Shown in pieces: positions 3,150 through 52,833 of a stretch of DNA of 64,000 nucleotides (position 1 is its first letter; each line of letters starts with the position of its first letter). The stretch covers positions 105,243,001 through 105,307,000 of the forward strand of contig CM027380.1 in the NCBI GenBank assembly GCA_015680905.1, written 5' to 3'. The DNA comes from Coptis chinensis. Lineage: Eukaryota; Streptophyta; Magnoliopsida; Ranunculales; Ranunculaceae. The notes under the pieces are model-generated. The model ran no database searches. It saw only the letters and a program-made list of their open reading frames with translations, and was not told the DNA's origin. Made by a program: the position numbers and the translations under genes.

Positions 3150-4894
3150 TCAGCAACTTACATCGATTATCAAGTGTTTCTAATTTGCTCATCTTGGCAA
3201 ATATGTTGCCACAAAACCGAAGCGCCCCTTCTTATTGTACTCATTCATTTTTTTCCTTGGAGACTTTATACTCAAGCTTTACGTCCCTGTTTCAACAAAG
3301 ATTCAACCCCAACATACATTCAGTCAATAGACATTGGACATCAATGAATTAGCTGGTACAATGAAAAAGGCACAATACATACCTGTTTTTGGGATCAATT
3401 TCCAATGCCTTCTTAATATCAATCTCAGCAAGGTCCAAATCAGCCAGTTGGATGTAAGCTTGGGCTCGTATATAGAGTGCCTTGACATTCGTACTCGCAA
3501 GTTCTAGTACCTACAATATCATTAACAGAACATTAATCATCATGCCTCTTGCTTTGATGTGATTTGAGTTGTAGGTATAAGTTGGTCCGCAGTTACCTTT
3601 GTGCAAAGCTTCTCTGCCTATTTGTAGTCCTTTAACTTCAGCTTGCAAGCTGCATTGTTCAGATTGCAGCTTACCTTTAGAACCTTGGGCTACTTCTTTT
3701 CCTCTTCACTGAAGTTGGTGTCATATTCAATAAATTTACCAGCTTGATTACAAGGTGATTTTCAGTCAGATGCAATAACACAAAATCATATCTAAAATGA
3801 TTTGATCCTACTAAAAACTATCTTGCCTTTTCATATCTTTTTGAAGCCTTAGCATATTTTTTAGCTTTGAATGCTACATTTCCTTCCTCTTTCTTCCTAC
3901 CAGCAGCTTCAATTTTCTTAGGTGTGTTCATGTCCCATGATTCTCTCTCCTAATGATAGAAAAGGACAATTTTAAACTCACTCATACCAAGCACAATGCA
4001 AGAGCCGCACAAAGAGAAGTCTCACTGAAGATACCTTGACAAAGGATTCAAGCTCAACTTCATAGTATAATTTTGAATTCGGGGGAACAACAGCCAATTC
4101 TTGCTTGGATTCAGATGAACCAAAACCATATTCTGGAGCAATAGTCAACTCTGCAACCTCCCCTTTCTTCATTGTCATGGCAACTCTATCAAGTCCATCA
4201 ACAACTTGCTCTGCAAAATGTAAAGACTACACTTCAGTATCTAGTTTAATATTGTTAACAAAAAAAGCATGCAAAGTCCATTGACATGAAAAATTTCCTT
4301 CTTGAACTCAAATAGCTCATCATCATCGTCATGCCCCTTCTTCATAAATACTGGTTCCATCTTGCAACTTCCCAATAAGTTTCCTTTGTCCGGACAAATG
4401 AGATAACATTATTATGCACACTACAACGATCCCATTCCACTAAGAACTCTTACAATTTATTATAATAACAAAAATCGAATTAATACTCCTTATTATCCAT
4501 TGTTCCTTCATTTGGATGCTCAAAATTCACCTTTAGCCCTTTGTTCCTTCATTTGGACGCTCATAACCTTCTCCTTCATTAACGATCTTCTTTATAACCT
4601 TCTTGTCATTAGTTACTTCATCCACGGTCTTCCACTCTAAACCAATTCAAGAGTTATATGAAGTGTGGCACTTGGTGGCACAAAGTGCCTTCAACACCGA
4701 GAGGCTGGTCGACCCATCTCCCCAAAGCCATCTAAAAAAAGTCTGAAATGCAATGTAAGTGACAGGTTCCACAATCTGTACAATTAAGTGATTTCCACTT
4801 CAAGCAAACTTACATTGTGGCTTCACTGTAATGAGAACCTTTTCTCCCTTCTTCATTATCTTTACTACTTTTGATAGTGGTGGGCAGAAATAAC
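3150..4894 (-). pseudogene. ROF1/FKBP62-like multidomain FKBP with TPR repeats (decayed, 5' part missing)
   Basis: On the minus strand, successive exons match the plant high-molecular-weight FKBP order. Exon 4814-4894 encodes GYFCPPLSKVVKIMKKGEK (second FKBP domain), entered at ttgcaaccag and leaving at gtaagt. About 4500-4731 encodes VTNDKKVIKKIVNEGEGYE. About 4290-4380 encodes KKGHDDDDELFEFKKE. Exon 4036-4212 encodes EQVVDGLDRVAMTMKKGE and PEYGFGSSESKQELAVVPP (third FKBP domain). About 3824-3952 encodes ESWDMNTPKKIEAAGRKKEE. Exons 3597 to about 3745, 3383-3510 and about 3150-3286 carry the TPR region (VKALYIRAQAYIQLADLDLA) and the C-terminus (IFAKMSKLE). Known family members are prolyl isomerases and HSP90 co-chaperones of heat stress. 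Signs of decay are in-frame TAG at 3690-3692 and 3618-3620 (both where relatives have Gln), frame loss in the 4.3-kb and 4.5-kb exons, and no first FKBP domain found upstream. The family call is firm; gene activity is unlikely. Confidence 0.85.
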
Positions 4895-6239
4895 CTGGTT
4901 GCAAAGACAAAACATGCAGATTCCGTTAGAGAAGTCGGAACTAAGGAGTGGGTCGTTGCTTCCATAAAGCGATTTTTTGTTGCCTTTGGCGGAGAGAATG
5001 ATTAGCGAGCCAATATAAGTTCTCTTTTTAGAAATAGGCGATATCATAAGCAATTCACAGAATAAAAATGTCAAAAAGCCCCAATCTGTAGTCCTTATTA
5101 GAAACTTCACAACTTAAACCCACTTTTAAAATGACATTCTAAAAAAAAAAAAACATTGAATTTCAGATTAGGCGATCCACGAGGAAACAATATTTTCAAA
5201 TCTTTCAAGCCTTCAAACATATATACTTTATAAGAGGGCTTTTACATAAGATAAAAATGAATAGAATAAGATGCTAAGTTTTTCACCCTGATTGAGACAA
5301 TTAATCCCAGTGAAGCACGAGAACAAAACAGACCACAAACAATAAAACATACATCCTTTACTTATGAAAGTCCCCGGTTACACATCCAAAACAGTTATGA
5401 AGCTATAATCACAACAAAAGTCGAAAACCTTGCATACCTGAATGTTAAAAAAACTCCCTACTTAAGCACCAAAACCTATCTCAAACAAAGGCAATCACAA
5501 AGCGAGAACCTCGTCCAAACGAAACATTTAGAACTCATGAAATTGGTCTATTGTCGAGAACCTTCAACGGCTGACTTCTTCTTTGGGGAAACAACTCAGA
5601 TCGGAAGCATCTAAAACCATTGATGATGATGTTTTGGTTCTATTCGGAATAAGTATCATAAGGCATCTCACCGTCGGGAAAAAACTACCACTTTTCATCC
5701 AAAATCCCTTGTTCGGAAAAGGCGCCAAGGAAAAACTAATGAGTATATATATTCAATATTGCGGTTTCTTACGGCTAATGTGCTTGAGTCGACCTTGTCA
5801 TAATTATGAATTCTTTGAACAAAGTCACATTCAAACAAGTAATTTCTAATTCATTCTTATGTTTCCTCTTCTAACCTTTTTGAAGTATAACATTTAAAAA
5901 TCACTATATATACCAACAATGAACACTTTAGGTAACAAATGCATATAATGGATAAAGTAGTTATCAACCCTAATTAAACAGGTTAGACACCAAATTTCCT
6001 ACCAAGAGTGCAAAGCTATTTATCATCATGCATTAAACAACTTACTCCATGGTAAAATGGGAACACTGCAGAGATCTTTCCAACAATAAACATTATGTTT
6101 CTCTATACAAAATATAGTTTAAATAATTATTTTCATTAAAAGTGAAGCTAAACAGGGTAACACAAGTTCTCTGGCCTATTGAGACATGCGAGCTCTTTAC
6201 ATTCACGAATCAAACAACTTAATCCACAGAGATGGCAAA
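4895..6239. other. Unrecognised sequence shared by both copies (A)
   Basis: This lies between the FKBP exon and the Athila-like LTR and is repeated at 31744-33072. A plus-strand open frame of 88 codons (5583-5849) corresponds to a 165-codon frame in copy B. The translation matches nothing I know, and the frame is not kept between copies. It may be decayed 5' intron or exon sequence of the FKBP gene, but no first FKBP domain is visible. Confidence 0.4.
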
Positions 6240-8234: not shown

Positions 8235-9405
8235 TTTTTTTTTTTTTTTTTTTTCAAAGGGGGTTTTGAGAGGTCCCTTACCCCTATTTTATTAAAATTA
8301 AAACTAGCTTGGTTACATAGCTTATACTCTTACATATTTTTTGCCCGTGGCGAGGGAATACAATTTTCCTTACATCTTTGGAAAATGAACTAGGGGTAAT
8401 TACTACATAACCGGGTCAATTTTTCCGGGATATTACTAGCCAATATATCGCCTAATTTGTTGGTTTCGAAAGACATGCTTGAGTGTGAAACTCTCAAGTT
8501 GGGCTTTCAATCGTGGATTTCACCCATCGGATAATGGGCTCGCCATGGGTAATCTCAAATGTTTCCTCATATAAGGCTTTCAGGGCGTTGTTGAGTCCGT
8601 CTCGGGATTAACATTTAAACATCTTCTCTCCACAGATTTGCTGAATTCCTCTCGCTAACCCCTGTAGAACTCAATGAGGTCGATCGATTGATATTACCGA
8701 CTTATTAACCTAAGTTTGGCGAAAACTATTCTTTCTCTTATCATGCCGCCCATCCCCCTTTGTTCTCCCTAGAGTGTTCCAGATATAGAGAAAGAAAGTT
8801 CCCATATTTCGCTTCTCCCATGCATACAACTTTTTATTTTATTTTTGCTTCCACCATTACATTCCATATTGACATAACCCCTGTCTAATTTCGGGTCCTT
8901 CATCCATTCTTGTTTTTGAGAGAAGAGAGTTTGGTCGCTACATCATGAATGAGCAATGTACTCACGGACGGCAATCTGATTTTTGTGTTGAAAGATAATT
9001 TTCTATTCCTCTTTTTGCCATTTTATGATAGATGAAGCCATTAAACATCATCCTAAGCGCATCTAATTTTGAATGCCTTTCTTTCGTTTTCATGATCACC
9101 CATTCCACTTGTCTTCCAACCGGTAAAGAGACTTTGTGCCTTGTTGAAATTGGCAAACGTTGTAATGTATGCCGCCATATGAATTGTAAAGATGATATGC
9201 ACTCAAAGAATATAAAATTTCAGTTTCTCTCTCCTTCCAACACAAAGACACATGTGTCATCGGGCTTACTACCCCCACTCTTTCAACTTGCTAGTTGTCT
9301 CAACCCTCCCTGGAATGTGAGCTTTTTAATGAAGGAATGTCTCGGCCTATCCGATCGAGAACCGGATTCAAGAGATTCCAAGATCTTGGGGTTTTTTGAC
9401 CGCCC
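8235..9405 (-). mobile_element. 5'-truncated L1-type LINE, insertion specific to copy A
   Basis: The plus strand has a T run at 8235-8254, that is, the poly(A) tail of a minus-strand element. Next to it, on the minus strand, is a 3' UTR-like end (ttttaattttaataaaatag). Upstream, minus-strand frames near 8962-9278 encode VSLPVGRQVEWVIMKTKERH followed by LDALRMMFNGFIYHKM. This resembles the C-terminal tail of plant L1 reverse-transcriptase proteins (the 'W..K...L.K..F...IYHIW' pattern). Copy B lacks the whole segment: its sequence runs from the TTTTCTGAAACAATTAAA region straight to TTTTTCTCTTCTTCG. Only the 3' end is present, in more than one frame, so it is dead. The right edge is good to within tens of bases, and target-site repeats could not be fixed. 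Confidence 0.65.
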
Positions 9406-12400
9406 GACGAGGTTTTCTCTTCTGTTTTTCTTCCTCATTCTATTCTCAGACTTATTCTAGATTAGGTAGGTTGAAATTTTTTTTATTTTGTTTTGTTTTT
9501 GTAACAGGGTAAAGGATTTGTGGTTTATGAAAGGCTAAAGAAAGGCTAAAGAAACGTAGACTAAGAATCCGACACTTACAACCACTCACTCCAAAAGGAG
9601 GGTCCGGTTGCCTTAATGGTGCACTCCCATAATATAAGATTGGAATGGAGTTCACCGAAGAATAAAATGAGTCTTTTATAGTCAGATACTCGAGACTTTA
9701 TATAATATATATGTATTAAAATGCAGTTTACCATATATCAACAATCGAAAAAGTTGTGGGTCTTTCCACAAATAATTAACATGGAATGCACCATCAAACA
9801 GAATTAAGCACCAAGATTTCCTATGACGTAGCTTAGTGGAATGAGAACAAAGCCTTATAGATCTAAAACCTAATCGAGCATACAGTTTCTTCTTTGTCCT
9901 CCTACGAAGGGGATGCCAAATAAATGAACGTGAGAAAATTGATGGTTGTGGAAGATACGTAGGATGTGGATAATTTTGAGAGAGAAAAAATGAAAAAACG
10001 TCAGGTGGCTTGTCCTTGGGTGTTACTTCTTCACCAGTTGGTTTTAGATAGTTATGAAGCATAGGAGAAACGCCAAGGTCAAGTACAAACTCAATGGTTC
10101 TTTGAAAAGGTAAAGGGCGAGGAACATTCGTGATGGAAGGTGAATGAGTGACATGAGGATGTGAGGTGGGTGAATGGTATTCAACTAGTGTTCTTAGGTC
10201 TATATCATCAGAGGCCTTAAGATATGCAAGACATTCCTCAATAGGTGGGTAAGAAGAATCACTGGGATAGAGGGCTTAAAAAATTCTTCTTCCGTCATGG
10301 CATGGCCAAGAGATGAATGGATGTCAATAGGAGAGAACTTCGCGGAGGCTGCAAAGAAGGGTTGCAAAGAGTCGAAGGAAATCCTCCTTGATGTTATCTA
10401 CGCCTAGGGAGTAGAAATTGTGATCCTTGTCTTCTTCCATAAGAGGGGTATCTACTAGTGTGGGGACTAAAGTGTCGGCCCGACTAATGTGAGGTACAAA
10501 ACTCTCAATGGACTTCACTTCCCTTCTACATGCAAACCTAGTTGTCCCTGTTTTTTGTCTAAACATGTTAACTTCTACAGAAAGATTTCCAAAGGAAAGA
10601 GTCATTGAGCCATCCCGACAATTGATTTGGGCATTGGCGGTTGCCAAGAAAGGACGCATTCTAAGATGATGGGAATGGAATCATGAGCAACCGTGTCAAG
10701 AATAACAAAGTAAATTTCGATAGTAAAAATCCTGAACTTTAACGAGAATATTTTCAACTACACCCTTGGGATACTTAATAGAACGATCGCTAACCAAAGT
10801 CATTTTGGTTGGTTGAAGTTTTGTTAGACCTAGTTGTTTATATAAATAAAAAGGGAGTAAGTTAACACTTCGCCCCGTGTCTAATAATAAAGTTGTTATG
10901 AAGGTATCACCTAAGGTGCATTGTACAATAGGATCGACCCGGGGTCCTTGTACTTAACAATCCGTTATGTTGGATAAATAGAGATATTATTGATTAAGAA
11001 TGCTTAAAGGTGGGGTATGTTGGTTTTCCTCTTCTTGGTGCACAACTCTTTTAGAAACTTAAGTGCGTGTCGGTAGACTTTTATAGCTTCTAGAAAAGGT
11101 AGGTTGATAGTTAGATTTTTAAACACTTCCCTAATCTCATCAAAATTCTCGTCCTTTTTAAACACAATTAGTCTCTCGAGATCACGGTGGTTTATCTTTA
11201 TACCTAATATGAGGGGAACATATTTGTTAACCGTTGTTTTATCTTTTATCACTTTCGAACTAGGTTTCCATATTGGAACCTCTACAGTGTAGGGTCTTCA
11301 CTTTCTATTATTGGGTCTTGTAATGTTTTCCCTTTTTGGTTGTGGTTTAACCGGTACTTCTATAGTTGTAGGGTCTTCGGTTTCTATTATAGTATTTGGT
11401 ATGGTATCATTTTTAGTTTGCGGGTAATCTTTAGGCATAGTCACTTGGTTATCAACAACTCTCCCCGAGCGAAGGTAGTGACTCACCAGAGTCCCCCTTG
11501 GTTTATATTACCATTACACTCAATACTTTTTATTTGGCGGTGTTTGTTGACTTAGGATTAGGCTTCGCTTGACCGAAAACGCCGGTTTGGTTATTATTTT
11601 GATTAGAAGACATGTCAATAACCTTTTGGCACAAAGACGCATCATTTGCATCGTTTGTTTCATCATATTAGAGTTTTGATCATGCCGATCTTTCATCAAG
11701 TTGGAGTTTTGTTGCATAATTTGATTTTGTTTCTCCAACAAGGTCACTACTACTTTGTCCATAGATGGTTGTATTGGAATTAAAAGCTTGTTGGCGTTCA
11801 TGTCTTGATGTTGATAGTTCTCGGGTAATGGGTACTAAACCTCTATTCCGGGTCACCTAAGTTCCCTTGTCCTTGATGTTGAGTTAACCGGTTGAAGTGT
11901 GATGGTTGTGGTGGTGTTTGTGCATAAATAAGAGGACAATAGAAGTCGAATGCTCAAGACTACAAAACGAGACATTACAACGAAAGTAGAGTTAATGTTC
12001 ATGACCGGAGTGGGTTGTTGTTGAACGAGATGGCATCTACCTTTTAGTGAGGGCATCAATAAGAGTTTTAAACGGGATCATATTTAACCTCAAGAGAAAG
12101 AAGAGAGGAGCGGGAGGAATCGTTACCTCCCCAATTGTTGTTCTTCTTAGATTGATCTTCTAAGAATTTATAAGCCTCCCAAGGCTCTTTTACTAAGAAA
12201 ACTACCCCTACCATGATATCTAGAACCTCCTTATGACGATGTAAAAGCCCTTGAAGAAGAAGGCACCTAACAAGCGTTGTCTTTCGCAAGATTATGATCT
12301 GGGCATTCAATGAGAAGATCAGTGAAATGATTCCAGGCCTCTGAAAAGGATTCATGAGGATTCTGGTGGAAGAAATGAATCTTTTGAAGAATTTCATCTG

Positions 12401-12900
12401 TCTTTAGTGGTGGGTAAAATTGTTCCATGAACAATTGAACAAGTGAGCCCATGAGTCGACAGAGTTTGGCGTTTGGGCAGTTAACCAAGACGCCGCCTTA
12501 TCGGCTAAGGTGAAAGGGAATACCCTCAGTTTAATTTGTTCCGCACCAACCGTAGGATGGTGGAATGTTGTTAGGACTTGTTCAATCCTACGCATGTGCT
12601 GATAAGGTTTTTCGTAGTCTAAACCATGAAAAATGGGTAACAAATTAAAAATATTTGGGGGGATTCGGAAATCCCCCACTGGGTCTACTAGAACGATACA
12701 AGATTTGGGGCTATTGCTCAAGGCTTTGTAGAAGTCAGAGAGAGGAGTCTCTCTTTCTTCAGCCATTATATCAGGTGGTGTGTGTGGAATAGTAGCTAGA
12801 GGTGTAATGGGTGGTATACTAGATAGACGTGTTTGTCGACGTTGCCGTGAGTGAAACACTGTGTTGCAACTTTGCAAATAGCCTAGGGTGTAATATAGTA

Positions 12901-13618: not shown

Positions 13619-16600
13619 TGTAACGCCAGTATTTTTAAAATACATTTTTATCTATTTTATTAATTAATTAAATTATTTATTTTCAAAATTCGTCGGATTG
13701 GACTCGGGATAACGTGGCCCACGGTTTTGGGCCCGAAGTTCCAGGTTGGGCTTGGGTTTCGGACCCAAGTATATAAACACATTTTTCTAGAGAATAGGGT
13801 TCTGGAAGAATAAAAAATAATGAAAATGGAGGCAGAGCTTGAAGCTTGTTTCTTTGGAGGGTGGATAGCTTGACACTTCGAACTTCGGAGGAATTCGTAG
13901 GAGCTGTTCATACAGGTGAGTAGCTATTGTTGCTATTTCACTAGATTTATAGTTTTTCTGGTATACCGACAAAATTCTACTGTCAACGGTTTCTATTCAT
14001 TTTTGGTTTGTTCGGCTGTAGTTATTCGGCGATATTGTCGAATTGATTAAACTAGATAATGTTAGGATATCTTTTGTTTAAGTTATTGGACCATTGTTTT
14101 TTTTTGAACCATTGAACTCAAGAGAGCCGCCAATGGCAGCTCCTATGTCGTATCGTTCACACGGGATGTCGAGGGGGTGTAGTATTTGAAGTTGGTTGTA
14201 GAGTGGATTCGCGTCTGTCGAGATTTACATTGGTGGAGTGGTAACAAGGCCGGCTTCGCGATCCGACACTAAGGGCGCCACCGCCGCTTGATTTTGATTG
14301 ATTCGGCTTGAAAAGAGTGTGGGTTTGGATGATGGGTTGAAGGGGTATGTTGGAGTGTGTGAGGACGCCGAGATGGAATTAGAGTGTCTTTGTTGGAGCT
14401 TGAGAATTTTAATGGCTCGAACGTCCATTCTTGTGTTCTTGAAGGATTTGTTTGATGCGCTTTTAAAATTGTTTAAACCGTTTTGTTGTTGTGGGTTGGT
14501 TGAATGATGTTTGGTGATACCGTGGTAGTGGGGATGGTTGGAAATTTGCCGATTGGAGCTTGGAACAAGTCAGAATGGTGGCCGAAATTTGTGTCTAGAT
14601 CTAGTTTTGGGGAAGGTTAGATCTAAGGAATTGAGGTTTATGCCTTAATTAAAGTTATAGGGTTTTTGTTTGTGAGTCTAACCGACTTGTTGAAATGGGA
14701 GTGGGTGGCCGGAAAATTTGGTGGCTGCTGGTGGTGGAGGCTGTTAGAGAAGATGAACAGTAATTTCGATTTGGGCTTTGGGCCTTGGGCCAAATTCTTT
14801 TATTTTGTTTGGGCCCGATTTTAATTAAGTTTTGGGACCAGTTTTAGTGTTAGTCTATGGGTCGGTTTTTTTGGGCCTAAATCTTTTGTTTGGTTGGGCC
14901 AAAATTCTAATTTTATGTGGGCCGGATTCTATTTTTAGATGGGACCAGTTCTAATTTTTAAGTGGTTGGGCCTTAGCTAGTTTAGAGTGTTTTGTTTGGG
15001 CCAGTTTCTAATATTGCTTGGGGCCAGTCCATAAGACTTAAAATAGATATCCAAAGGGGTCTTTCAACTTTTAGACTTTCGGGTTTTAAGGTTTGGGCTT
15101 GGCCAGTTGGATCCGAACCATTACCTTAGCCATGACATGAACTTTGACCTTAGCCATGAACCATGGCTATGACCCTGAACCTGTCGAACATGGAAACGAC
15201 AGTTTGGCTTTGACCATGGCATGTTGACTTTGACCATAACATGTTGACTTTGACCTTGACCATGACGTGTTGACTTTGACTTTGACCGTTGACTTTGACT
15301 GTTGACTTTTTCCAGTTTTTCTCATATTTGATTTTATGGACTATATATAGTAATAAAATGTTGTCGAACATTATATAACGTTGTTTGTCATTATCTAATT
15401 ATGATTTGACGTGAGTAGTGTGTAAAGCATATATATATTAGGCTTTGATTGTGGACTGTGGACTGTTTAATTGTGCTACATTTTATGTTGTAAATTGTAT
15501 GGACAAATCCAATGCTAAAATGCTGTGGAAGCTTGTATAAATTTGGTGGTCTTTATCTAATTAAGATTTGACGTGGATATTGTGACACTATGTAATATGT
15601 GGGATATATATATTAAATACAATAGTTTTGGAGACATAAATGTATCACCGCTCCATTATTATATATGTGAGATGCTACTATGAGGTAGTATAGTATTTAT
15701 GAATATTTGTCCACGGGAGTGTGGTGTAGTGCAATAATATATTGGCACGTGAAAGAATGAAATTAGTTATGAGATATAATTAAGATATTTCTAAATATTG
15801 TGGTTTAGTGCAATAAGGTATTTGACCTGCACGTGATATAGTGGAATGTTTATGAGTCATAAATATATGACACCCGAATAAATTACGTAACGAAAATCCT
15901 AGAACCTGACTACCACAACTCATGTGATTTTGCGTATTGCGGGCATTATGTGATATATAAGATGTTGTATATATAAGATGTTGATTGACCCATGTGTTTG
16001 GGCAATCGTGGCGAATAGTGGCTTGATTATTCCGTTCGCGCAAAAATAGAACGAGATGCTAATATTTTATGCCGAATAGGGCATTACTTACATAATGGCC
16101 AGGTGTGAGGATTTACAGTGTCGCGCATCCATTTCGGGGTGGTTGGTTACGGAGTGGTTCCTTATGTAAGGGGAGGCATGTGGATGTACATGTTCGGCGT
16201 GGGTAGCGATTGTGGTAGCCGTGGAAACTAGGTAAGACATAGATCTGACGTGATTTTAGGGACACAAAGAAAGCCTTAAATAATCTAATTATGGTAATAT
16301 GTTGGTTATTTGTTTAGTTGAACTAAAACCTCGATGGAGGAACTACACCGCCTTATTTATCATGTGTATAGTTTGTTGCGTGGTTAATGGGAAGTTAAGG
16401 CGCCTTAGTGGAGGAACTACCTGCCTAGATTATTGTAATTAAGGATGTTGTATTAGTTGTTGAAAATTAAGGCGCCTCGGTGGAGGAACTAACTGCCTTA
16501 TAGATTGTGTAAATATATGTATAAGTATATGTTGTGTTTTAGAGCTACTCACACCAAAGATTTTTATAATCTTCGACCCGATTTGCATGTTTGCTTATCG

Positions 16601-16951
16601 GGTGTGTTCATTAAATGAACACAGTTGATAAGTCTTGACAGGTTTAGTGTTGAAGAAGATTGGTTGCTGCTTGTGGTTTGCGTTAGCGTTGCATCTCAGG
16701 ATATGTTTTGTTTTCCCTCGAGGTGATATAGATTTTCAGTCCATACAATGTTGTTGTATTTTCATTTGTAAGTATTTTGTAATGAAGAGGACACTTGTTT
16801 AAGTTTAAAATTTTTATTGATTTTTAATTATCCGCATATTTAAACTGTTGATTGGTTTTTGGGAGTTGAGAGTGCGTCACACCTCGGAGATCGAAGAGTC
16901 GGGAACAAATAATGTTTTTTTCCGAATTCTGTCGAAATTCGGGGTGTGACA
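13619..16951 (+). mobile_element. Solo LTR of a large LTR retrotransposon (likely Ty3/gypsy), copy A only
   Basis: A 3333-bp insertion starts TGTAACGCCAG and ends GGGGTGTGACA. Its flanks, aatgg (13614-13618) and actgg (16952-16956), are a near-match 5-bp target duplication. Copy B shows the uninterrupted site. No protein-coding core is present, so this is a solo LTR. Inside are several 'GGAGGAACTA.CTGCCT' repeats (about 16320-16500) and a run of TTGACTTTGACC repeats (about 15210-15310), features common in long plant LTRs. Strand is assigned from the end sequences. It is younger than the duplication, or a haplotype-specific insertion. Confidence 0.85.
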
Positions 16952-17198
16952 ACTGGCGGGAGAACTGTCACACGATATGAAGTTGATGGAAGTGAATCTT
17001 GAATGTGGATGAAGTTGTGGACGAAGTTATGGATGAAGTTGTGGATAAAGTTGTGGACGAAGTTGTGGAAGCTGTTTGACTCGCAAAATATGTATGTAAT
17101 TGATATTGATTTTACGTGTAGGTATGTAGGCTTTGAGCATAGGCTTTGAACATGGGCTCTGAGTGTGGGATTTATTATAGATAAGCTCTGAGCATGGG
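16952..17198. repeat. Short tandem repeats between the two solo LTRs (A)
   Basis: At about 17007-17070 a 15-bp word, gatgaagttgtgg with variants, is repeated in tandem. From about 17120 begins the GCTCTGAGCATGG minisatellite, which is interrupted at 17198 by the second solo LTR and continues at 19991. Copy B has the uninterrupted version at 40500-40990. Confidence 0.75.
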
Positions 17199-19990
17199 TA
17201 TAACACCCCGTGTTTTATTTCTTTTATTTTTCTAATAATAATAATAATAAAGATAATAATGAAAATAGATAATAGATAAAACCGTTAAAGGATATCTAGC
17301 AGTTACGGACGGATAAAAGCCCGTAGATAAATGGATAAGTGTTGTCCTTGTTTTTCGGGGAGTTTTCTCACGTAGAGTTTTTAGGGAAAAACAAAACAAG
17401 AGTTTGAAAAAAAGAGGAGAGTTTTACTGAGAGGAAAAAAAAGGGGGGGTTTGAACAAGAAAGATCGTCCAGTTTCGCGCGACGGTCGACTTCAGTTTTT
17501 GGGGGTTTTCTGCTTAAGGAAAGCGGTTCGGTTTATAACAGTGAGTAGTCTGAAGTTTTTTTGTTATATGTGTTTATGCTATTCATCCCAGTAATACTGT
17601 TTTCTAGAATTGAAATAATGTAAACCTCTTTAATGGTGTCGACTGAGTTATACGAATGTCGCAGTACCACAGTATGTAAAACTCTGTTAAGGTGCAGACT
17701 CTGTTAATGGTGCCGACTCTGTTAGAGACCATTTGGAAGTACTACAGTAAATAAATTCTGACGAATTTGAGCATTTAACTATCGAAGCCTTGACACTGGT
17801 TGTTATTGGCGTCGTCACCAGAACCCAAATCGTCCTGTTTCGTGTTGGTTGAATGAATTGTTTTGTTGGAATTTTTGTTGTGATGTTATACTGTTAGTTT
17901 GAATTGATTGTTGATGTTTGATTGTTAGTTTGAATTTGATTGTTGATGTTTGATTGTAACTTTGGAGAGCGGGTTGAAGCTCTGAATAAGTTAATGGAGG
18001 TCGAAATATAGATCCAGTTTTGAGGGAGGAATTGGAGAATCAATGAATTGGGTTTTTGTATGAACTAAAGAAGTAGGGGTTTTGATGTAGGTTATTTTCG
18101 AGTAGATTAGAAGTGTTGGGGGTTGGAAATTTGTGGTGGTGGATTGAGGAGAGAGTCGATTATGCGTTAGTGAGGGAGACGACCCTTGGTTGGGTTTGAG
18201 ATTGGGCCGAATCCCTCATAGTGTTGGTTAGGTAACACCTACGAGTCTTATTGGATGGTCGGTGGTAGCTGGAGTGGAGGAGAGGTGCTGGAGGAAGAAG
18301 AAGATGAACAGTAAAGTCTGATTTGGGCTTGGGCCCGAAAATCGTGGGTTGGGCTTAGGCTTTAACTTTTTTATTTTTATTTTTTGACTTAAGTTAGACT
18401 ATGGGCCCTAGTGCTTTGGGCTTTTGGGTTTTTGGAGTTTAGGCATGGTTGACCAAGGTTGGCTGTTGACCAGAGTGGACTCTGATTTTGACTGTTGACC
18501 AGAGTGGACTTTGACTTTGACTTTGACCAGGGTTGACTTTGACCAGTTGACCCAAAAATTTGACTTTTTCCTAAAATTATGATTCGGTCTATTAGGATAA
18601 GTCTAGGACTATTAGCATGTTTGACTTAGGCTAGGACCTTTATAAATATACTTGTGTACGTGTATTTACTGCTTTGTGATTTTTAGTCTTTTATGATACA
18701 CAACGTTATGGCATTTATACATCCATGAAATTAATAACGCGTAAACCAAAAATACTTGAATCAAGATATTCCTTCGTTCTCTGAAATAATATATACAATA
18801 AAGTTCAATAATCGTAAATAAAATTTACCGCACCCTTTTAGAACTCCAACTCAAGTTTTGAATTGAAGTTTATAGTGATGAAGTCATATGTTAGGTGGGC
18901 ATTTATTAAATGTGCCATGAATGACCCAGGTATTCATTGAATGTGCCATGAATGACCAGATAGTTTGGACGCCTAAAGAGGAACTAAGGTATTCGGCCAT
19001 GGGTTAGTTGTATTCCTCGAGTGTAACGGGAATGTAGGATTGGGTATTCCTTGAATGTGGCGAGAATGACCGTGGTATTCATTGAATGTGTCATGAATGA
19101 CCAGATTATTTGGACCGCCCTAGATAGGAACTAAGGTATTAGGGCCTTGGGTTAGTTGTATTCTTTGATTATCGAAGTGTTTGGGTTTACTTTTGAATAC
19201 CTAATATAATATCTACATATGTTATATAGAAGTTATAACTTTCTTTGCAGGAGGGTAGGACTTAATAACATTTTGTCCCGAGGGGACGCGGTCCTACCCT
19301 TATACGTTAAAGTGGATATCGGTAAGTTTTAATTCAATGGTTTAGATATTAAAACGAGTTATTATAATGAAGTTATATAATGGAAGTCTTGCTTGGGAAG
19401 AAATTATGCGGTTAAAATGACGGAACCACACGCCTTCCAAGCTGTGAATGATTAAGTTATGGGATAATATAAAGTGATTGTCCGAATAATTAAAGTATGA
19501 TAAATGTTTTATGTGGTTAGTCTACTCATACAAAGACAAATTCCATTTTGTCAACCCATGTTTGCTTTGTTTTGTAGCGTGGGTGTGTTCTTGGGAACAC
19601 AGTGGAAAGCGATGGAACCGCGTGTGTGGATGGGATTCGCGCCCGGAGCAAGTCCGTTAGTTTTGTTAGGTCTGTTTCTTTTGGAAGTATGTAATAACAT
19701 AGTTTTCTTTTCATATGACATGAGAATACGATGTTGAGGACCTGTTATTCTTAGAATGTTATATTGATGATTTTTGATGGAAGATAGACTTGCATAAAGT
19801 AATAAAGAGAATTTTTTGGAGATTATATTTGTGGTTAAGATTGTTTATGATGTGGGTTTTAGGTTTTGACATGTGTTGTATCTACCCCGTCATAGCCTGG
19901 GTTTTTAGACAATTGAACCAAGTGATGTTTGAGATATTTATATTTCAAATATTCATTTTTTTTAATTGTTTAGAAATTCGGGCTGTGACA
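17199..19990 (+). mobile_element. Second solo LTR, Ty3/gypsy-like, copy A only
   Basis: This 2792-bp insertion is bounded by a perfect 5-bp target duplication, ATGGG (17194-17198 and 19991-19995). It begins with an AACACCCCGTGTTTT word and ends CGGGCTGTGACA. Copy B has the empty site (gagcatgggctttgagcg). It contains degenerate tandem units of 'GAATGTGCCATGAATGACC' (about 18895-19110) and TTGACTTTGACC runs like those of the first solo LTR, suggesting a related family, but the two are not copies of each other. There is no coding core. It looks recent, since the target repeats are intact and it is missing from B. Confidence 0.88.
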
Positions 19991-20275: not shown

Positions 20276-21520
<1,245 letters not shown>

Positions 21521-22989: not shown

Positions 22990-22991
22990 AT

Positions 22992-23003
22992 TGGTATCAG
23001 AGC
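22992..23003 (+). other. Copia primer-binding site (initiator Met tRNA type)
   Basis: TGGTATCAGAGC is the classic plant Copia primer site, complementary to the 3' end of initiator methionine tRNA. It sits two bases after the LTR end and about 100 bp before the gag start. Confidence 0.9.
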
Positions 23004-34155: not shown

Positions 34156-35194
34156 AACCACCCCCAAACAACATTTTGCTTGTCATCAAGCAAATATGAG
34201 AAATTAGAATAAGTGACCAAAAATGGAGTTCTATCTACTCTCGTTTCGCTGAGTGCGATTGCATTGACCATATGCAACAAGGCCTTAAACTACTAGGAAT
34301 TCCCTAATGGACGAGTTATAGCCTCGTGAGAGTTTTCCAGTGAAGGTACTCACAAACTTCATCTATACTACAACGACTAAGAAATAAAACTATTGTTTCC
34401 TTATTTATGTCTCAATTATCTATACATCTCACTAGCAATGAATACGTAATAATCATGTAGCCGAAACCTAAGCTAATATATGCATAATAATCAATCATCT
34501 ACTTAATAAACATATATACAATGAGTAATGCTATGAAATGCATAATGTGTCCGTTTACGAAACTTTGGAATAAGCGTCCTTAAGTAGGTTCTCACATAAA
34601 AGTCAAGACAAAAATCACTCTGATTTTTCCACTCAAGTTTTGCTACTCTAGTGTGCGATGAAAAAGTACTTTACCTTACAATCTCAATGACACACAAGGA
34701 AGCGAAGTTGATCAAACACATCTCCACTTACTATCCCACTAACTTATTCCTAATTGAGGCTAGAGGTCTTTATTAGGTGTTCATGGGATTAGGAGATGGT
34801 TTAAGAAGGAAGGAAATGGATATTCAAAAAGGACAAGTCTGAGATAATAGAGTCTTCATATTATGTAACTAGAGAAAACCTTGTTATTTACTTTTGCTTC
34901 TACACTTTGTTTCCATCCATAGCCATATTTTTTTTTCTTTTTCTTTGGCTTTTGACTCCTTTTATTCTATTTTTTTGAAGTTTTTATTTTATTTCTATTT
35001 TTATTTTTCTTTTCTTTGGATGAAAACTTCTTTTCTTTATTTTCTGAAACAATTAAATGACTTTTGTTTACACAGGTTTTTCTCTTCTTCGTTCTTCATC
35101 ATTCTATTCTCAGACTTATCTAAATAGGGTAGGTTGAATTTTTTATTTTGTTTTGTTTTGTAACAGGGTAAAGGATTTGTGGTTTATGAAAGGG

Positions 35195-36410
35195 CTAATG
35201 AATGGCTCAGTGGGGCGACTAGCGGAAAATATACTTAGGTCAGAATTTCTAGCTATATCGATCCAAAAAGGGCCTAAATTCTCTCTTAGGACATGGTATA
35301 GTGGTCAAGCAAGTGGACGTGTGATTTCTCTATTCGGAATATACTTCTCCCTTGTGTCATTTCTCAAATGTTTCACTCATATAAGGCTTTAGGCTATATT
35401 CTCACAGGATTTATAGAATAAGTACTCTAGCCTAGATTTCAGAAACTTACTGCCAAACAATCATAGATACTCATGTAATATATTTATAGATAGATGCAAA
35501 GATTATTACCTACATATTAACCTAAGTTTATAAAAACTATTCTAATGCAAAAACTACGTGAGACTTCTAGATTATTAAGAGCATAGAGAAAGAAACAATA
35601 CCAACATTCCTAAGTGTATAGCATAAACTTTTTATTTTTATTTTTATTTTTATTTTTATTTTTATTATTTTTAAGACAAATAATACGTAATATACAACCT
35701 AATATGTGCTTAACATTTACATCGTGTTTCTATACCACCCCCCAAACAATTTGGGAGAAGGGGGTTCATGAAACAATTCAATAACACAATTAAATTATGT
35801 AACTAACTAATTTTTATAATTTTTAACATTTTATAAATAAAAGTGCGTAATTTACATCCTAAAAGTGTCTAATTTTTGCAATGTTTCTATCCCACCCTCA
35901 AACAATCGAACGCTTTGTCCTCAAAGTGTAAAGAGATAAGGAAAGAATTTACCATAGAAACGTGGCAAAAATTGGCGCACTGTAATGTAAATATTGTAAA
36001 GATGATATGATAATATGAAGCACAATTAAACCGGTATCGCGTCTTAACTAACACAAACTCTACCTAGTAAACATGACAAAGCTTAGGGTGGCAACATGAT
36101 TTGAAATGAATACCAAAATCGCCACCCCCAAACAAAATTGGAAAACTCTTTTTAAGTTTGAAAATTTTGTTTGGCCTATAATCTCGAAAAGTTGGTATTG
36201 TGCGAAAACTTGGGTCTTTTAAAAGTCGATTCCTAGACTTACTAATATATGTTTATGTTTTATTTTATTTAGTTTTTATATGTTTGATTTTTAGAAAAAC
36301 AAAACAAAATTACGATAAAGAAATAAAAATGAAACTCACTCCATAGAGAAGCACTACTCAATCCACGAGAAAAAGTGTAAGAGATAAATGCGTGAGTCAC
36401 ATGAAACGTA
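35195..36410. other. Segment of the Athila-like internal region present only in copy B
   Basis: Copy A jumps from ggtttatgaaaggctaaag straight to aaacgtagactaagaatccg, with a short repeated filler (ggctaaagaaaggctaaag) at the join. Copy B has about 1.2 kb in between, including a TTTTA microsatellite at about 35628-35672. The filler suggests a deletion in A rather than an insertion in B. No coding sequence recognised. Confidence 0.6.
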
Positions 36411-40376: not shown

Positions 40377-40990
40377 TTACTTCATCGTTCTCCAATATTC
40401 CAATCGTGGGATGAAGTTGGAGAATTGGCGGGAGAATTGTCCAATCGTGGGATGAAGTTGGAGAATTGGCGGGAGAACTGTCACACGATATGAAGTTGAT
40501 GGAAGTGAATCTTGAATGTGGATGAAGTTGTGGACGAAGTTATGGATGAAGTTGTGGATAAAGTTGTGGACGAAGTTGTGGAAGCTGTTTGACTCGCAAA
40601 ATATGTGCGCAATTGATATTGATTTTACGTGTAGGTATGTAGGCTTTGAGCATAGGCTTTGAACATGGGCTCTGAGTGTGAGATTTATTATAGATAAGCT
40701 CTGAGCATGGGCTTTGAGCGTGGGCTTTTTGGGCACTGAACATGGGCTTTATTATAGATAAGCTCTGAGCGTGGGTTTTTTGTAGATGAGCTATGAGTAT
40801 GGGCTCTGAGCGTGGGCTTTTTGGGCTCTGAGCATGGGCTTTTTGGGCTCTGGGCATGGGCTTTTTGGGCTCTGAGCGTGGGTTTTTTGGGCTCTGAGCA
40901 TGGGCTTTATTATAGATAAGCTCTGAGCATGGGCTCTGAGCGTAGGATTTTTGTAGATAAGCTCTGAGCATGGGCTCTGAGTGTGGATTT
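40377..40990. repeat. 41-bp repeat, 15-bp repeat and GCTCTGAGC minisatellite, uninterrupted (B)
   Basis: Holds in one piece what two solo LTRs split in copy A: two 41-bp units (caatcgtgggatgaagttgg), then gatgaagttgtgg units at about 40520-40585, then the ctgagcatgggctttttggg minisatellite at about 40640-40990. It gives both empty sites for dating the LTR insertions. Confidence 0.8.
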
Positions 40991-42300
<1,310 letters not shown>

Positions 42301-42596: not shown

Positions 42597-44756
42597 CGTT
42601 GGTTGGGATCGGGTAACATGCGACTTTAATTCTTTCACTCGGTTCGGTTTGATTCAATGGCTTGCTTATTCGAGTTGTGAGTGAAGCAAGGTTGTTAAGG
42701 TAAATGTGGAACTAAGGTGCCAAAGGCCTATATTGCTTGTGGCGAGAGGAGAGGTGCACTTCCAATTGAAGACTTTCAGCGAAACAAAACCGTGAAATAC
42801 CATCAGGAGCCTTAGGTACCGATTTCTACAATAAAATTTGTTGTGAAATACCATATCATCAGGAGTGGCAAATGGAAACCTATTGTTTGTGAAATACCCA
42901 GCACATGATTATAATGGAAACCAATGAATTTTATTGTTTGTGAAACAAAAGGTAACCTATTGGTTTACGTTTCTTATGAGAGTCCTTGGATATAAAAAGA
43001 AAGCAAATCGGCTCATCATCAGTCATAAAACTGAGAGAGAAGAAAATAAAATAAAACAAAGTTCTGATATGTAGAGAAAAAAGATATTTTCTCATTCTGT
43101 TGTGAAGGGCGCGACTCGCGCTCCATTTACACCTGGATAAGGCGCGACCCACGCTCATACATTTGGTGACTTACAGGCTCTTCAGCGCGACCCGCGCTCC
43201 ACCCTATTTAAGCACGAATTTGCCTTTTTTCGGAAGTTTTATGAAATAGGATAAATATAGGTTTTTTCTGTAGAAACCTAACTTTTCCAAAACAAAGAAA
43301 GAGAGATTATAAGTGAACAATTCTTTATGAGTTGAGTGTTCATTCTTTGTGAGTGAATTGAGAGACTTGTAATATGTTACTCTGGACATCTAGTAAAGTT
43401 TGGAACTCGCAGTGTGGACGTAGGCAAATTGCCGAACCACGATATATCTCGTCTTGTGGTTTGTTCTTCTTTTATATTAATTGTTTTACTTTAGATACTT
43501 GTTATTTGATATTGAGAAGTGTTGGGATTACTTTGGAGGGTGTTGAAGCCTTGTCTAGTAAGAAGGATTGATCCTTGTGTAAGATTGATCTATTGTAGTG
43601 GGTAACGTTGTTTCCACAGTGGTATATTCACAACAATTAGTATCAGAGCGTAGGTTTACGACTTAGGAATTTGTGTAGAGAAGGTGTTCGATTAAATTTC
43701 TGAGTTAAAACTTTTTTTTTTGGGTTATTGTGTGTAACTTGAAAAAATGGGTCCCAAGATGTCGAATGCTAAGTTTGAAGTAGAGAAGTTTAATGGGAAA
43801 AATAATTTTGGGATTTGGAGAATCCAAGTAAGGGACATCCTCATCCAACAAGGTTTGCATAAAGCTATAAAGGGGATTAAATCTAAGGCGGCGAGTATGA
43901 GTGATGATGATTGGGAAGAGTTCGATCTACAGGCTTGTTCATCAATCCGGTTGTGTCTTGTTAATGAGGTTAGTATAGTGTGATTGGAGAAGATATCGCT
44001 GCCAGTATTTGGCTCAAGCTAGAGTCTATGTATATGACCAAGAGCATGACTAACAAGATGTACCTTAAGAAGCGTCTTTATCGGTACATAATGGTGGATG
44101 GTTCAATGATGCAAGAGCATGTTAGTGAGTTCCGTCGACGCCTAGTGGATTATTTGAATGTTGGCATAAAGATGAATGATGAGGATCAAGCAACATGTTT
44201 AATATTCTCTTTGCCAGAAAGCTATGAGCATCTAATGACTAACTTTATGAACAGAGAAGATGTAGATCTCGACGAAATTCAAATTGCGCTTCTTTCTTAT
44301 GAGTTGATGAAGAAGACACGAGTTGAGAATAGCATTGATGCAGGACAGGGGTTATTGGCAAGAGGAAATTCGTATGAATAGAATTCTACAAGTAATGAGA
44401 ATTCTAGGTCCAAGTCAAAGAAGCCTTTAAAACATGTACAGTGCTACAATTGCAATGAAAAGGGACATTACGTAAGTAATTGTCCTCACCCGAAGAAAGA
44501 GAACAAGAGAGATGGTCAGAAGAAAGGTAAGACAAAAATTGAGGCAAGTTATACTTCAGGCTCTGAAGGGGATGAGTTCAGTCTTTGTGTGTCCACACAA
44601 GACTATATGACCGAAAGGTGGATTTTTGATTTCGGATGTTCCTATCATATGTGCCCGAATAGAAAGTGGTTTACTTCTTATAAGAGCATTGATGGTGGTT
44701 CCATTTTGATGGGTAATGACGTTGCTTGTAAGACAGTAGGAATTTGAACTATACGG
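42597..44756 (+). mobile_element. Ty1/Copia element, broken, copy B
   Basis: LTR about 42597-43635, primer site about 43638-43649, gag from 43747, zinc knuckle near 44440, protease-like start near 44610-44740. It ends at about 44756 against the SLC35F5-like intron, exactly as in A. No integrase, reverse transcriptase or 3' LTR, so it is broken. Confidence 0.85.
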
Positions 44757-44785
44757 TCAAGATGTGTGAGGATATAAAAACAAAC

Positions 44786-46842
44786 CTTTACCAATTAGGA
44801 GACCAAACTGCTTCCAGCTGAAAATGTGAAAAGGCTCCAAGTTTGTAATATTCAGTACAAGGGCAACTGGTAGGAATATTAAGAGGTTGAAAAGGCCTAA
44901 ATATCCAAGTAGTTGCGCCATACTCACACGTCCACACTTTTCATCCTCGTCTGGTATCCTCTTACGAATAATGGTGATAAATGAAGCATACAAGCATGCG
45001 GAAGCAAGAGCAAGAATGTCACCAAGCAGAGGCTTTGTATCAATGACACTTAATTCAGATTCCATATCACCCAAGCTGACAATTACCGTTCCTCCAAAAC
45101 ATAAAAGGATGCTTACTAACTTTAGCAATGTGAACCTCTCTCCCAAGAATATTAGAGAGAGCAAAAAGGTAAAAAGGCTAGATGTGCTGTTTAAGACGGT
45201 ATTTGACTGCAGGAGAAAATAATACTAATTACAAGCTAGAAACAGGAAACACCGAAACGGCATCTCTACCACATGTAACTAGACTTCATATATTTGACAG
45301 AATTTGATGGTCATCACCGTGCTATTCGGGACCTGAACGGAAACATATATAGGGGAACCTCCTAGGCATGTGTATTTGTGAGTTGTTAGTAGGATTCAGT
45401 GGCGGAGCCAGGGGGGGTCCAGGGTACACCCTGGCTCACCCTCGGTTTTGGTAGAAAAAACATTTAGTCTTGGTAAAATTGTAAATTTCACTTTCCTTAA
45501 GGGCTTTATCAAACCCATTATGTTTTGAATTGTCAATTATGCCTATAAAACCTAAAATAGAGTAAGTGTGTCCAGTTAGATCTGCTAAGGTTTTGAAAGT
45601 AATTTTGGAATTTATTAGTTGGTTTGACTTGAACACGGACGCATTTGAAACAACAAGTGCACATAGCTTCCACGTACACTTCAACTGAAAAGATGGTAGT
45701 GCGTAGTAAGTTTGTCACATGAATGTTTGTATGCTCCTCTAAGTGTCATAAGCCATATGGCATTATAGTTTGAACAAAGAAGAACAAAAAAAAAAGTGAA
45801 AGAGTATACACTTTTAAATGGCTTTTATCTATAGAAATTATCAATTAAGAAAACAAACAATTTAATGAACTAACCTACACAATTAATAATCTCGTTTCCT
45901 CCTTATTAAATATAATAGATGTGAGTTATGATTGTTCTTTCAAATAAAAAAATTTCATTACGTAAACTTTAATATGTTTTGATTTTGAAAAATTTATAGA
46001 CTAAATTAACAATTGTATGTTTGCATAAAAAAAATGCGATAGATTGACAAATATTAAAGTAAAGAGAAAAGTAAGAAATATGTGTACACTCTAATTGAAT
46101 TGCGCTGCAAATTTGTAGTGCTAATCGGCTCACCCTAGAATAAATTTCTGGCTCCGCCACTGGTAGGATTCCTTTACAAACATCTGCTTGAAAACAGAAT
46201 GAGGAGTAGACCTGTTACTAGTACCCTCCCTGATACTATGTAAATCTTTTCCAGTTTATTGTAGTTACTTAACTAGCCAAAATAATGTAAGCAATTTAGA
46301 TTAAACTGATGCATAATCAACAAATGCTAAAAGTATTTAGACACGCTTACTGTCACACTTGTATACTTGAGAGAGAGATTGGAACAGAGATATGAAAGAA
46401 ACCAAAAAGGGCACAACAAGAGGCTAACTCTTGCGGTTTTAGTACGAGTCCAACGCCCTTTGGCATCCAGATGGTTATTAGATACAAGTTCCTCACTCAT
46501 TTCTCCATGTTCAACAAATTCAGATGGATTTAGATCATCCCCTTTCCTAGTTAAACTGCTCTGCCCAAGAAGAACCTCTTCCTTGTCCGAACGTCCAGCA
46601 TGAATGACATTCTTATTACTAGACCAAAACCAAGTACACTCAACTGAATCCTCCAAATAATGCCAAACTTCAACAACAGGAATATAAATCATAAGTAAAG
46701 CATTGCATACATAGGTGACAAGGAACGGCGAAACACCTCCATCTACAACAGATTGAACAACAAAACCAGCAGCAACCCAGATTGTTGCAACAGCTACTAT
46801 GTATATTAAACCCAATAACCATCTCCAAACTTCAGTATTCAT
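44786..46842 (-). CDS. SLC35F5-like EamA/DMT-family transporter, first two exons only (copy B)
   Basis: Exon 1 is 46842-46351 and exon 2 is 45206-44786 on the minus strand, with the same splice sites as copy A. The proteins are almost identical; exon 1 differs visibly at one residue (Gln-Ser-Ser versus Gln-Ser-Asn in the loop). The intron is longer than in A because a 766-bp hAT MITE sits in it, and it has also lost about 85 bp that A retains next to 45330. As in A, later exons are replaced by the broken Copia element, so the product would be truncated after about the seventh membrane span. Confidence 0.85.
45397..46162. mobile_element. hAT-type MITE, 766 bp, copy B only
   Basis: Perfect 15-bp terminal inverted repeats, CAGTGGCGGAGCCAG at the left and CTGGCTCCGCCACTG at the right, are flanked by an exact 8-bp target duplication, GTAGGATT (45389-45396 and 46163-46170). 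The 8-bp duplication and CAGTGGCGGA-type ends indicate the hAT superfamily. No transposase frame is present. Copy A carries the empty site (GTGGGATT at 24835-24842). It sits in the intron of the transporter gene. Confidence 0.93.
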
Positions 46843-49591: not shown

Positions 49592-50511
49592 TCAATCACT
49601 GCCACTACCATCGCCAACACCACTACCACTGCCATTACCATTACCACCATTACCTTCACCAGTGAAATTAGTACCATCACCATAGTTGCCACTACCATCA
49701 CCACCGTCACTACTACCTCCAGAGGTGTCATTATCATTTGGGCTAGTCCCGTTCCTGTCACGAATGTTAATAGCAAAACAAAGTGTGTCATCACGGTTTT
49801 TGAACGTCCAAATCTCTGCTGTATGGACGCCCTTTTTTATACCGTTTGCATGTGCGAATTCATACCACCTTGTGAGCAAAACGCATCTGCGACAACCCGC
49901 CAATGAGTAAAGTTAAGTTTCCATATTGTGTTCCGGGACCTAAAACATGCACCGGTAGTTGTTCTCTTAAAGGTATGCATTACCGTGTTTCTTTAAAGTC
50001 TTCGTGAGGCTCTCTTCCACTTCCGTCGGCAGGTAAAGACGGTTCTGAGTCTTTAATGTATCACTCTCAAACATATCTTTCATGTTTACCCACTCAATCT
50101 TTTTTCCTTTCAATACATTGATGATAGAAGTCTTCATACTTTCTGGCATAACTGGCTCTGGAGCTCTTATTCTTTGTTGGTCTGTTCGTCTTCTTGTTGT
50201 TCGTTCCCTTCTTGTTGGTAACCCGATTGGTAGTCCTATATTCCTCGTCGTCTTCTTCTTCTTCTTCATCATCGTGGCTTTATTGTCCTCGTGTTCCTCT
50301 ACTAGTTGGGGCGTTGTGCTAGTGAGCTAGATTCCTCCTCTTGTTGTGGTGACCGTTCGGGTGAGGGCGTAACTTCTCCTTCCTCTAGTGAACATGATAA
50401 TGAACACGATGATACACAGTCCGAATTATCTTGCTTTTCTTCTCGAATTAAATTGTCATGTTCCATCTCTGCAATGTGTAGGATAGCACGCAAAAGTTGG
50501 GATCGTTGCAT
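49592..50511 (-). pseudogene. B3-domain protein gene, frame-broken copy B
   Basis: Three minus-strand blocks: 50511-50302 (MQRSQLLRAILHIAEMEHDN and an acidic stretch EEGEVTPSPERSPQQEEES), 50272-49967 (basic MMKKKKKTTRN start) and 49903-49592 (B3 part RCVLLTRWYEFAHANGIKKG and the Gly/Asn tail). The blocks lie in different frames. The change between the last two corresponds to a CCTGG in copy A that reads CCCG here, so it may be a sequence error. The first block is more complete than in copy A and shows what the N-terminus looks like. Confidence 0.65.
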
Positions 50512-51071: not shown

Positions 51072-51947
51072 GCATGGATATATGAGCATTTCCCAATGTT
51101 TAGCCCTCCCCCGAACATGAATTATGTGAATACATTGCCGCGTGTTATGCGATGGGCAAATGGCATGTCAACCTATCTCGATCCGTTGGGGGCATTGAAG
51201 CATTTTAGGTTGATGATGGATAAGATGACACGTCATGATGTAAGCATAGTTTGTTAGTTTATTTATATACACATAGTTTTTGAAATCTTGTTTGTTAATT
51301 TTAATTTTGAACTTGATAGGTAATTTGGAATCCATACGGAAACGTTCGAGACGTCTGCCCGTTGGAGGATATTACATTTTACAATGGGGGTATATGCTTT
51401 TTTGACAAAGACGAGGTATATTTTGGAGAAAGGGTGTTAAGGTCGGTTTGGAATCCAACAATGTATACCGTCAGCACCATCTCCATCTCTGTCATCAAAA
51501 AACAAAACTGGAAAAATTAGTACGGGAATTGTGACCCAGTACTAGGAGTGTCGGGATCATTATATTATACCAATGCAGAATAGAGCACCTCTTTCTCAAA
51601 CTCCATGGGATTGTGTGGATTCGTACTTGGAGTGGTATAACGCGATCAATCATCCTTATCTTGTGAACTTTAACCCTCGTGATCCTCCTTCTTACATTAC
51701 CCTATATAGACCACCTCCTTGTGATTGGGTAAGTTCAAATGTAGTTGAACTAATTTTGATTTTATTTTTTGTTTGAGATTATTTTAAGGTTAGAAGTGAC
51801 TTTGATTTATGTTTTGCAGAATGCTATTGTCAATGAAATTGGTCGTCTATTAGAAGTCGGTATGTCTTCTGGAGGAGGTGAAATTCCGGAGAAGCGGGAG
51901 TACTTTCAGAGGGCTTTAGCACTGACGCAATCAAAATATTGATGATG
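51072..51947 (+). pseudogene. Plant mobile domain (MAIN-like) gene fragment, copy B
   Basis: Exons at 51072-51239, 51320-51728 and 51820-51947 match copy A. The first exon is fuller here: NYVNTLPRVMRWANGMSTYL reads through, which fits the family better than A. In the second exon the stretch equal to ERVLRQFG is disturbed at the CAG codon, while A is right there. The shared in-frame TAG after VTQY remains. The third exon also differs from A in length near 51860-51925. The pair of copies therefore breaks in different places apart from the shared stop. Confidence 0.78.
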
Positions 51948-52833
51948 GTACATACTTAAACTTACTTACCTAGAAAATATTTTGAAAAACATACCTAGAA
52001 ATAGCTGTTTCTATTTCCAAACATACGCAGTCAAAATATTGATGATGGTACAACAATAACAAATGAAATAGCTGTTTGGCTATTAAGGAGTTGAGGGCTA
52101 TGACTCTTAAGATCTGGTATAGTGGTGTAGAAGTTCCCCGCATTGTTGGCAGAGCATGGTTTTGGCAAAATATGGGCCAAGGACTTTCGGTGTTCTAGTT
52201 TTACAAGAATAAGAAAGAGTAAAGAAAGAAAATTACGAAGGGAAGATGATTAGTTTTTAAAATTGGAAAATTTTGATAGGTTAAGGTATTCATTTCTGAG
52301 TGCTTACTTAAATACAAATGAGGGTTGTTCTAGTTTGGGTACTTCGTAAATTTGTGATATTTTAGTTCTGCTTGTTACTATAATATCGTAAACCTGATGT
52401 ATTTGTGGATTGTCTTGATTTCCCTAGTATTTTTCTACTGGAGCAATTAGCATTTGGGTCTCGTTTCCAGTTTGTGAACCGCATGTTGTACTGTTCTTTG
52501 ATCAACAAAATTCAAGTTACCTACAGAAGAAAAGAAAAATGAAGTCGGTGTTACATGTTAATGTTTGTTGGTCTAAAATTATCTTTGGTGGTGTCTATGA
52601 TAGGGACCCAGGAAGGGAACAAGCAGCTGCGGTTTGCCAAGGACCTTAAGGAACCATCTTGAAGAAGGGAAAGATCCGAGTACAAAGCCATTTTGAAGCA
52701 CGGTCTTAGGAGCAGCATATAGTAGTAGCATTTTTTGGAAATATTGCAAAACCGAACAAAGAAGTGGTACTTTCGAACAACTCAAAGTGATGAAGAAGAA
52801 TTGGACTTGCAACATGCTCGATAGAGTACCAAG
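51948..52833. other. 3' flank of PMD fragment and right edge of the duplication
   Basis: Equivalent to 30643-31357 up to 52660. Beyond that lies unique DNA (gaagaagggaaagatccgag) found once in the window, which is the ancestral right flank of the duplicated unit. No gene recognised. Confidence 0.45.

Follow-up and report, generated by a model that had tools for sequence, protein, structure and literature searches.

The window examined here is a stretch of 64,000 nucleotides from the Coptis chinensis assembly GCA_015680905.1 (contig CM027380.1; C4:105243001-105307000), and the genome searched with it comprised 935.6 Mb in 116 contigs. A blastn self-comparison showed that the window holds two tandem copies of one segment, copy A at 4498-31357 and copy B at 31358-52660, with B starting directly after A in the same direction (head-to-tail) and the junction read at 31357|31358. 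About 6.3 kb of A, at 13619-19981, are for the most part missing from B. Both copies carry a transporter region of the SLC35F family (24111-26446 in A, minus strand; Pfam PF06027 on the open reading frame (ORF) at 24114-24521), directly preceded by a Copia-type gag piece (22514-24110, plus strand; Pfam PF14223) that has many substitutions and few of the multi-base changes that we call scrambles. Two repeats, neither assigned to a strand, are central to what follows. One is a retroelement-like repeat which, judged by third copies from elsewhere in the genome, is scrambled mainly in A at 10740-12190 and mainly in B at 12200-12849; the other is a dispersed repeat at 29690-31357, scrambled mainly in A from 30566, whose name, PMD, is taken over unchecked from an earlier note made on the bare letters of the window. 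The differences between A and B cluster at the triplets CAG and CTG (CWG, where W is A or T) in repeat-rich DNA, and very probably these clustered differences are mostly consensus errors at methylated CWG, unevenly polished, and not mutations.

A and B were aligned in five blocks, and their differences were grouped into events. Six stretches (A 8238-9550, 13619-19981 and 24686-24859; B 35070-36402, 40470-40697 and 45329-46172) fall outside the aligned blocks and are uncounted, and the events of B 43160-43262, which sits in two blocks, are counted twice. An event was called complex, or a scramble, when it was multi-base, so that by definition more than one alignment column had changed. There were 487 events, made up of 223 single substitutions, 74 single-base insertions or deletions (indels), 30 pure indels and 160 complex events. 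Complex events took in 99 of the 567 CAG/CTG sites (17.5%), whereas 200 circular shifts led us to expect 5.7% (z 9.4), and CAG/CTG was the most affected trinucleotide among those without CG. Trinucleotides containing CG were also often in complex events (12.8-22.6%), in part because CG appears in the other version. Counted by event, 81 of the 160 scrambles touched CAG/CTG in at least one copy, against a null of 25.4 (standard deviation 4.7, maximum 42, 500 shifts). The triplet was present in exactly one copy in 122 of the 487 events and in 72 of the 160 complex ones, and in these 72 the other copy was richer in CG in 39 and poorer in 8, which bears out the earlier note's remark that the scrambled counterpart often contains CG; the three examples that it gave were located at A 4879, A 30141 and A 13049 / B 39910. 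CCWGG sites were affected in 6 of 8 cases and other CWG sites in 85 of 342 (both outside 22.5-28.6 kb), numbers too few to lean on.

The excess was regional. CAG/CTG differed at 144 of 396 sites outside 24-28.5 kb and at 11 of 171 inside (p = 2e-15). With ten control trinucleotides as the regional control, the sites differing were 18/34 for CAG/CTG vs 63/359 for the controls at 4-6 kb, 12/54 vs 66/570 at 6-8.5 kb, 45/81 vs 179/1159 at 9.5-13.7 kb, 38/118 vs 69/573 at 19.5-22.5 kb and 23/69 vs 68/728 at 28.5-31.4 kb; they were 8/40 vs 42/402 at 22.5-24 kb (p = 0.11) and 11/171 vs 49/1147 at 24-28.5 kb (p = 0.23). In the transporter region, whose methylation state is assumed, just 1 of 105 CAG/CTG sites differed and none lay in a complex event. 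The mismatch count by trinucleotide inside and outside this region, which the note had proposed as a check, is thus uneven in the way it foresaw. It had also held that the triplets are unchanged in the transporter exons and their flank; this very nearly holds for 24111-26446, whereas the adjoining 26447-28590 is partly affected (9/71 differing, 6/71 in complex events). Further local copies of the SLC35F-type transporter region, 89-99% alike, lie on C4 at 105.19, 105.40, 105.43 and 105.44 Mb. Their differences from A are substitutions and indels of the ordinary sort, with CAG/CTG in complex events at 1/64, 0/65, 1/15 and 0/50 sites, respectively, or 2/194 together, their methylation state again being assumed.

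Third copies of the repeats indicate which version of an event is the private one. We called an event polarised when two or more third copies had one version and no third copy had the other; this covers 63 complex events, in stretches for which other copies were fetched, and 28 of them were polarised. Among these 28, CAG/CTG was in the supported version only in 16, in the private version only in 0, in both in 2 and in neither in 10 (sign test, p = 3e-5), so the motif-bearing version was the one common to the other copies, 16 to 0. CG ran the other way, being in the supported version only in 5 events and in the private version only in 11. The copy that was backed depended on the stretch: B in 9 of 9 polarised complex events at 10888-12099, A in 6 of 7 at 12321-12614, and B in 11 of 12 at 29690-31357. 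The load of change was unequal too. At 10740-12190, the trinucleotides lost to complex changes, out of 1224, numbered 74 in A, 29 in B and 1-39 in each of 26 third copies, and at 12200-12849 B had 11 private multi-base events, A had 3 and the third copies had 0-4 each. A patch-based polarity (CAG/CTG 61/114) was dropped as evidence, since the patches had been picked by CAG/CTG and the reasoning was circular.

The switching between A and B goes in blocks. When the 72 events were ordered by the copy holding CAG/CTG, they formed 15 runs instead of the 33.7 expected (0 of 20000 shuffles gave as few), and the 28 polarised events formed 5 runs instead of 11.5 (p = 0.002). One scrambled patch lies at 4814-5600 (no strand assigned), where all 4 of the events with CAG/CTG in a single copy (4827, 4879, 5310 and 5438) have it in A, these events being labelled by CAG/CTG itself; the 15-base word of A at 4879 occurs 12 times genome-wide, A included. 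Methylation alone would scramble both repeat copies alike, and the switching suggests uneven polishing. The "uncorrected long reads" of the earlier note therefore fit poorly, for an unevenly polished assembly would show both this block-wise alternation and the lower number of scrambles seen in third copies.

The CAG/CTG bias reaches beyond the window, where it is weaker, and the third copies fetched were less affected than A and B. In third copies alone, taken without A and B (26 of the 28 of the gag-like repeat), complex changes had removed CAG/CTG in 6/130 checks vs 356/31694 for other triplets (p = 0.004). For 29690-31357, copies on C2, C3 and C4:53 Mb had CAG/CTG in complex events at 11/42, 10/34 and 21/34 sites vs A and at 11/52, 9/44 and 13/44 vs B, whereas all other trinucleotides in those three copies gave 252/3330 to 387/3340 vs A and 130/3324 to 213/3334 vs B. 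Four copies of 26855-28236 gave 4/29, 5/30, 5/25 and 4/34 vs A and 7/28, 8/29, 9/24 and 6/33 vs B; all comparisons made with A or with B include the errors of A and B themselves.

A separate, indirect sign of methylation in the repeat families is their excess of C-to-T changes at CG and CAG/CTG. We compared 30 rows of the gag-like repeat and 28 rows of a second repeat (30.0-30.7 kb; 2 of 30 loci were dropped as too short), both with A and B included, and 8 rows of nuclear rbcL copies; because the rows share ancestry, the counts are not independent events. Changes of C-to-T type in the gag-like repeat numbered 74/983 at CG, 34/599 at CWG, 85/5324 at CHH (H is A, C or T) and 3/180 at CCG. The corresponding counts were 44/515, 37/349, 103/3751 and 0/34 in the second repeat and 31/332, 7/86, 29/1799 and 4/85 in the nuclear rbcL copies. 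The flank of the gag-like repeat had a weaker excess (CWG 13/343 vs CHH 205/10822, p = 0.03; CCG 3/168). Low CCG together with high CWG is a known hallmark of the plant enzyme CMT3, and the low CCG is not clearly seen in the rbcL copies. These rbcL copies (L069-L076), which match rubisco from plants broadly, are about 88-94% alike and have decayed from C to T at CG and CWG sites. Methyl-deamination may well lie behind the single substitutions between A and B too.

Taken together, the multi-base products that gain CG, the 16:0 polarity, the clean gene control, the weaker excess in third copies and the C-to-T sign argue for errors at methylated CAG/CTG. The following course of events would account for them. 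A long-read method based on signal, most likely nanopore, would have been applied to native DNA whose repeats carried 5-methylcytosine at CAG/CTG (and CG), and a calling model untrained on the mark would have called the methylated word and its neighbours as another short word, often one with CG. Later correction would have mended unique DNA and, in repeats, one copy per patch, as reads placed on the better-matching copy repaired it and left the other starved and with its errors. The transporter gene would have little CHG methylation, and its CAG/CTG words would be read correctly. We infer that methylation was the cause in this tissue, that the platform was nanopore, that a polishing step took place and that 5-methylcytosine led to the miscalls. 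The earlier note had put the miscalls at methylated CHG; for CWG, that is CAG/CTG, this is the best-supported reading, but it does not extend to CHG at large on the present counts.

The kind of error is already known. According to Wick et al. (2019; PMC6591954), about 70% of the consensus errors left by default Oxford Nanopore Technologies callers in a Klebsiella genome lay in the 5-methylcytosine Dcm motif CCAGG/CCTGG, and signal polishing often fixed only about 70-80% of the errors in that motif. Our case resembles theirs in that consensus errors fall on a CWG word; there the mark was untrained in the model, and here we take this to be so. It differs in that the motif there was CCWGG in bacteria, whereas here it is CWG with any flank, in plant repeats, patchily and in a large genome. 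Ferguson et al. (2022; PMC9749173) report that general models read the native DNA of two plants less accurately and name methylation as a likely cause; their main text has neither "CHG" nor "CAG", and in our case words, regions and polarity were measured in the assembly. A full-text search for CWG-specific consensus errors in plant assemblies, judged by titles and abstract openings and with subscription papers mostly outside it, gave none among the matches listed. Our case adds to this known kind of error a plant version at CWG, in which the scrambles switch block by block between duplicates.

Several observations weigh against this reading. No CAG/CTG was found in the event or its 2 flanking bases in 79 of the 160 scrambles, and none within 8 bases in 60 (by chance 64.7 of 160 would have one), indicating that CAG/CTG is a leading cause and not the sole one. 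The claim that one copy "usually" has CAG or CTG where the copies disagree was therefore too strong, although the clustering behind it holds. Of the 63 complex events with third copies, 31 were not polarised, and for 4 the third copies included both versions. The gag-like repeat is less scrambled in its third copies than in A and B; these copies were the best-scoring of 8208 candidates and were in this way selected for being clean. The Copia-gag piece at 22514-24110 is hardly scrambled (2/41 CAG/CTG in complex events, next to 53 single substitutions), and the nuclear rbcL copies had lost CAG/CTG by complex change at 0 of 23 sites despite their deamination sign. As for the C-to-T counts, CCG did not exceed CHH in the gag-like repeat or its flank, though it reached 4/85 in rbcL, and the CCG counts are too few to settle CWG vs CHG; CWG in the gag-like repeat was also richer in changes of other types (20/599 vs 49/5324 at CHH), which may be scrambles; and a C-to-T excess reports past germline methylation and not that of the sequenced tissue.

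Real divergence was considered as an alternative, because methylated CHG mutates fast and old repeat copies would hence differ at CAG/CTG, and the C-to-T excess at CG and CWG in these repeats is genuine. Deamination, however, yields single C-to-T or G-to-A transitions and not multi-base, length-changing words that gain CG. The 160 complex events, each of more than one column by definition, do not follow that expectation, nor does the rise of CG in 39 of the 72 one-sided events against a fall in 8. Both versions were present in third copies for just 4/63 complex events, compared with 9/47 single substitutions and 7/30 single-base indels, and divergence leaves the block-wise switching between A and B unexplained, so we hold this alternative to be very unlikely. 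Uneven polishing alone, by which random long-read errors were mended in unique genes and left in repeats and methylation had no role, would give both the patchwork of A and B and the unequal scramble load among copies. But random errors alone would not favour CAG/CTG about 3-fold, and the transporter, which is among the stretches where A and B are most alike and read placement is hard, is clean in both copies. The latter argument is not airtight, since identical copies can share reads; even so, we regard polishing alone as an improbable account.

A and B could also be two haplotypes, or a contig wrongly repeated, with allelic differences between them. The copies abut exactly at 31357|31358, where we saw no long repeat, and one of them has the 6.3 kb insertion, as such an origin would have it; the flanks left of A and right of B resemble those of other genomic copies of the same repeats while the joint does not, suggesting that the segment was simply duplicated in tandem or that the joint stems from assembly. 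An allelic origin leaves the word bias unexplained, and the CAG/CTG excess is present in dispersed copies on other chromosomes as well. As the source of the clustered differences it is extremely unlikely, but as a description of the locus it is compatible with consensus errors at methylated CWG, and both can hold together.

Differences between duplicates and between transposons serve for dating, pseudogene calls and selection tests. The assembled letters probably understate how alike A and B are, and if most scrambles are read errors, the copies look older than they are and perhaps also more broken. If true, such a bias affects methylated repeats while sparing genes, which lets it pass for biology, and the patchwork suggests that polishing can leave errors in repeats that gene-based quality scores do not see. 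We raise tentatively, as something we would not yet bet on, the idea that the CWG methylation of the sample can still be read from its imprint on a finished sequence, and that near-identical repeats may reveal methylated stretches, and the copy that escaped polishing, from the assembly itself and with neither reads nor bisulfite. If the imprint is general, many public plant assemblies carry it, and the young repeats and duplicates in them come out too old when dated by divergence.

The earlier note also expected many apparent frame breaks in the window to be unreal, for which we have one illustrating case. On the minus strand of A, an open frame runs from 28291 to about 29031 (228 amino acids from the ATG; 244 when counted within 28300-31357), with a weak B3 match (Pfam PF02362, 23 bits, below the cut-off of 30.1). 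Its counterpart in B falls into two pieces, of 119 and 104 residues, broken at about 49912-49970, and the break coincides with a cluster of complex and single-base A/B differences, at a place where no third copy tells which version is erroneous.

The remaining observations concern the structure of the window. Within the 6.3 kb of A, 251 bases (16948-17198) match B 40461-40711 at 97.6%. The gag piece at A 22514-24110 differs from B 43160-44754 by 53 single substitutions in 1.6 kb, and the transporter by 12 in about 2.2 aligned kb, a roughly sixfold difference in density. To go by the letters, this would be odd for a single duplication event, and gene conversion or mixed haplotypes could explain it. 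The ORF at 25013-25528 of the transporter region had no Pfam match. The idea that 4498 and 31357 are the ends of a mobile element, suggested by a trimmed query, was rejected, as other copies run past both points. To the right of B lie two tandem arrays, one at 53565-54609 with 4.7 copies of a 222-base unit and one at 55424-58180 with units of about 550-580 bases.

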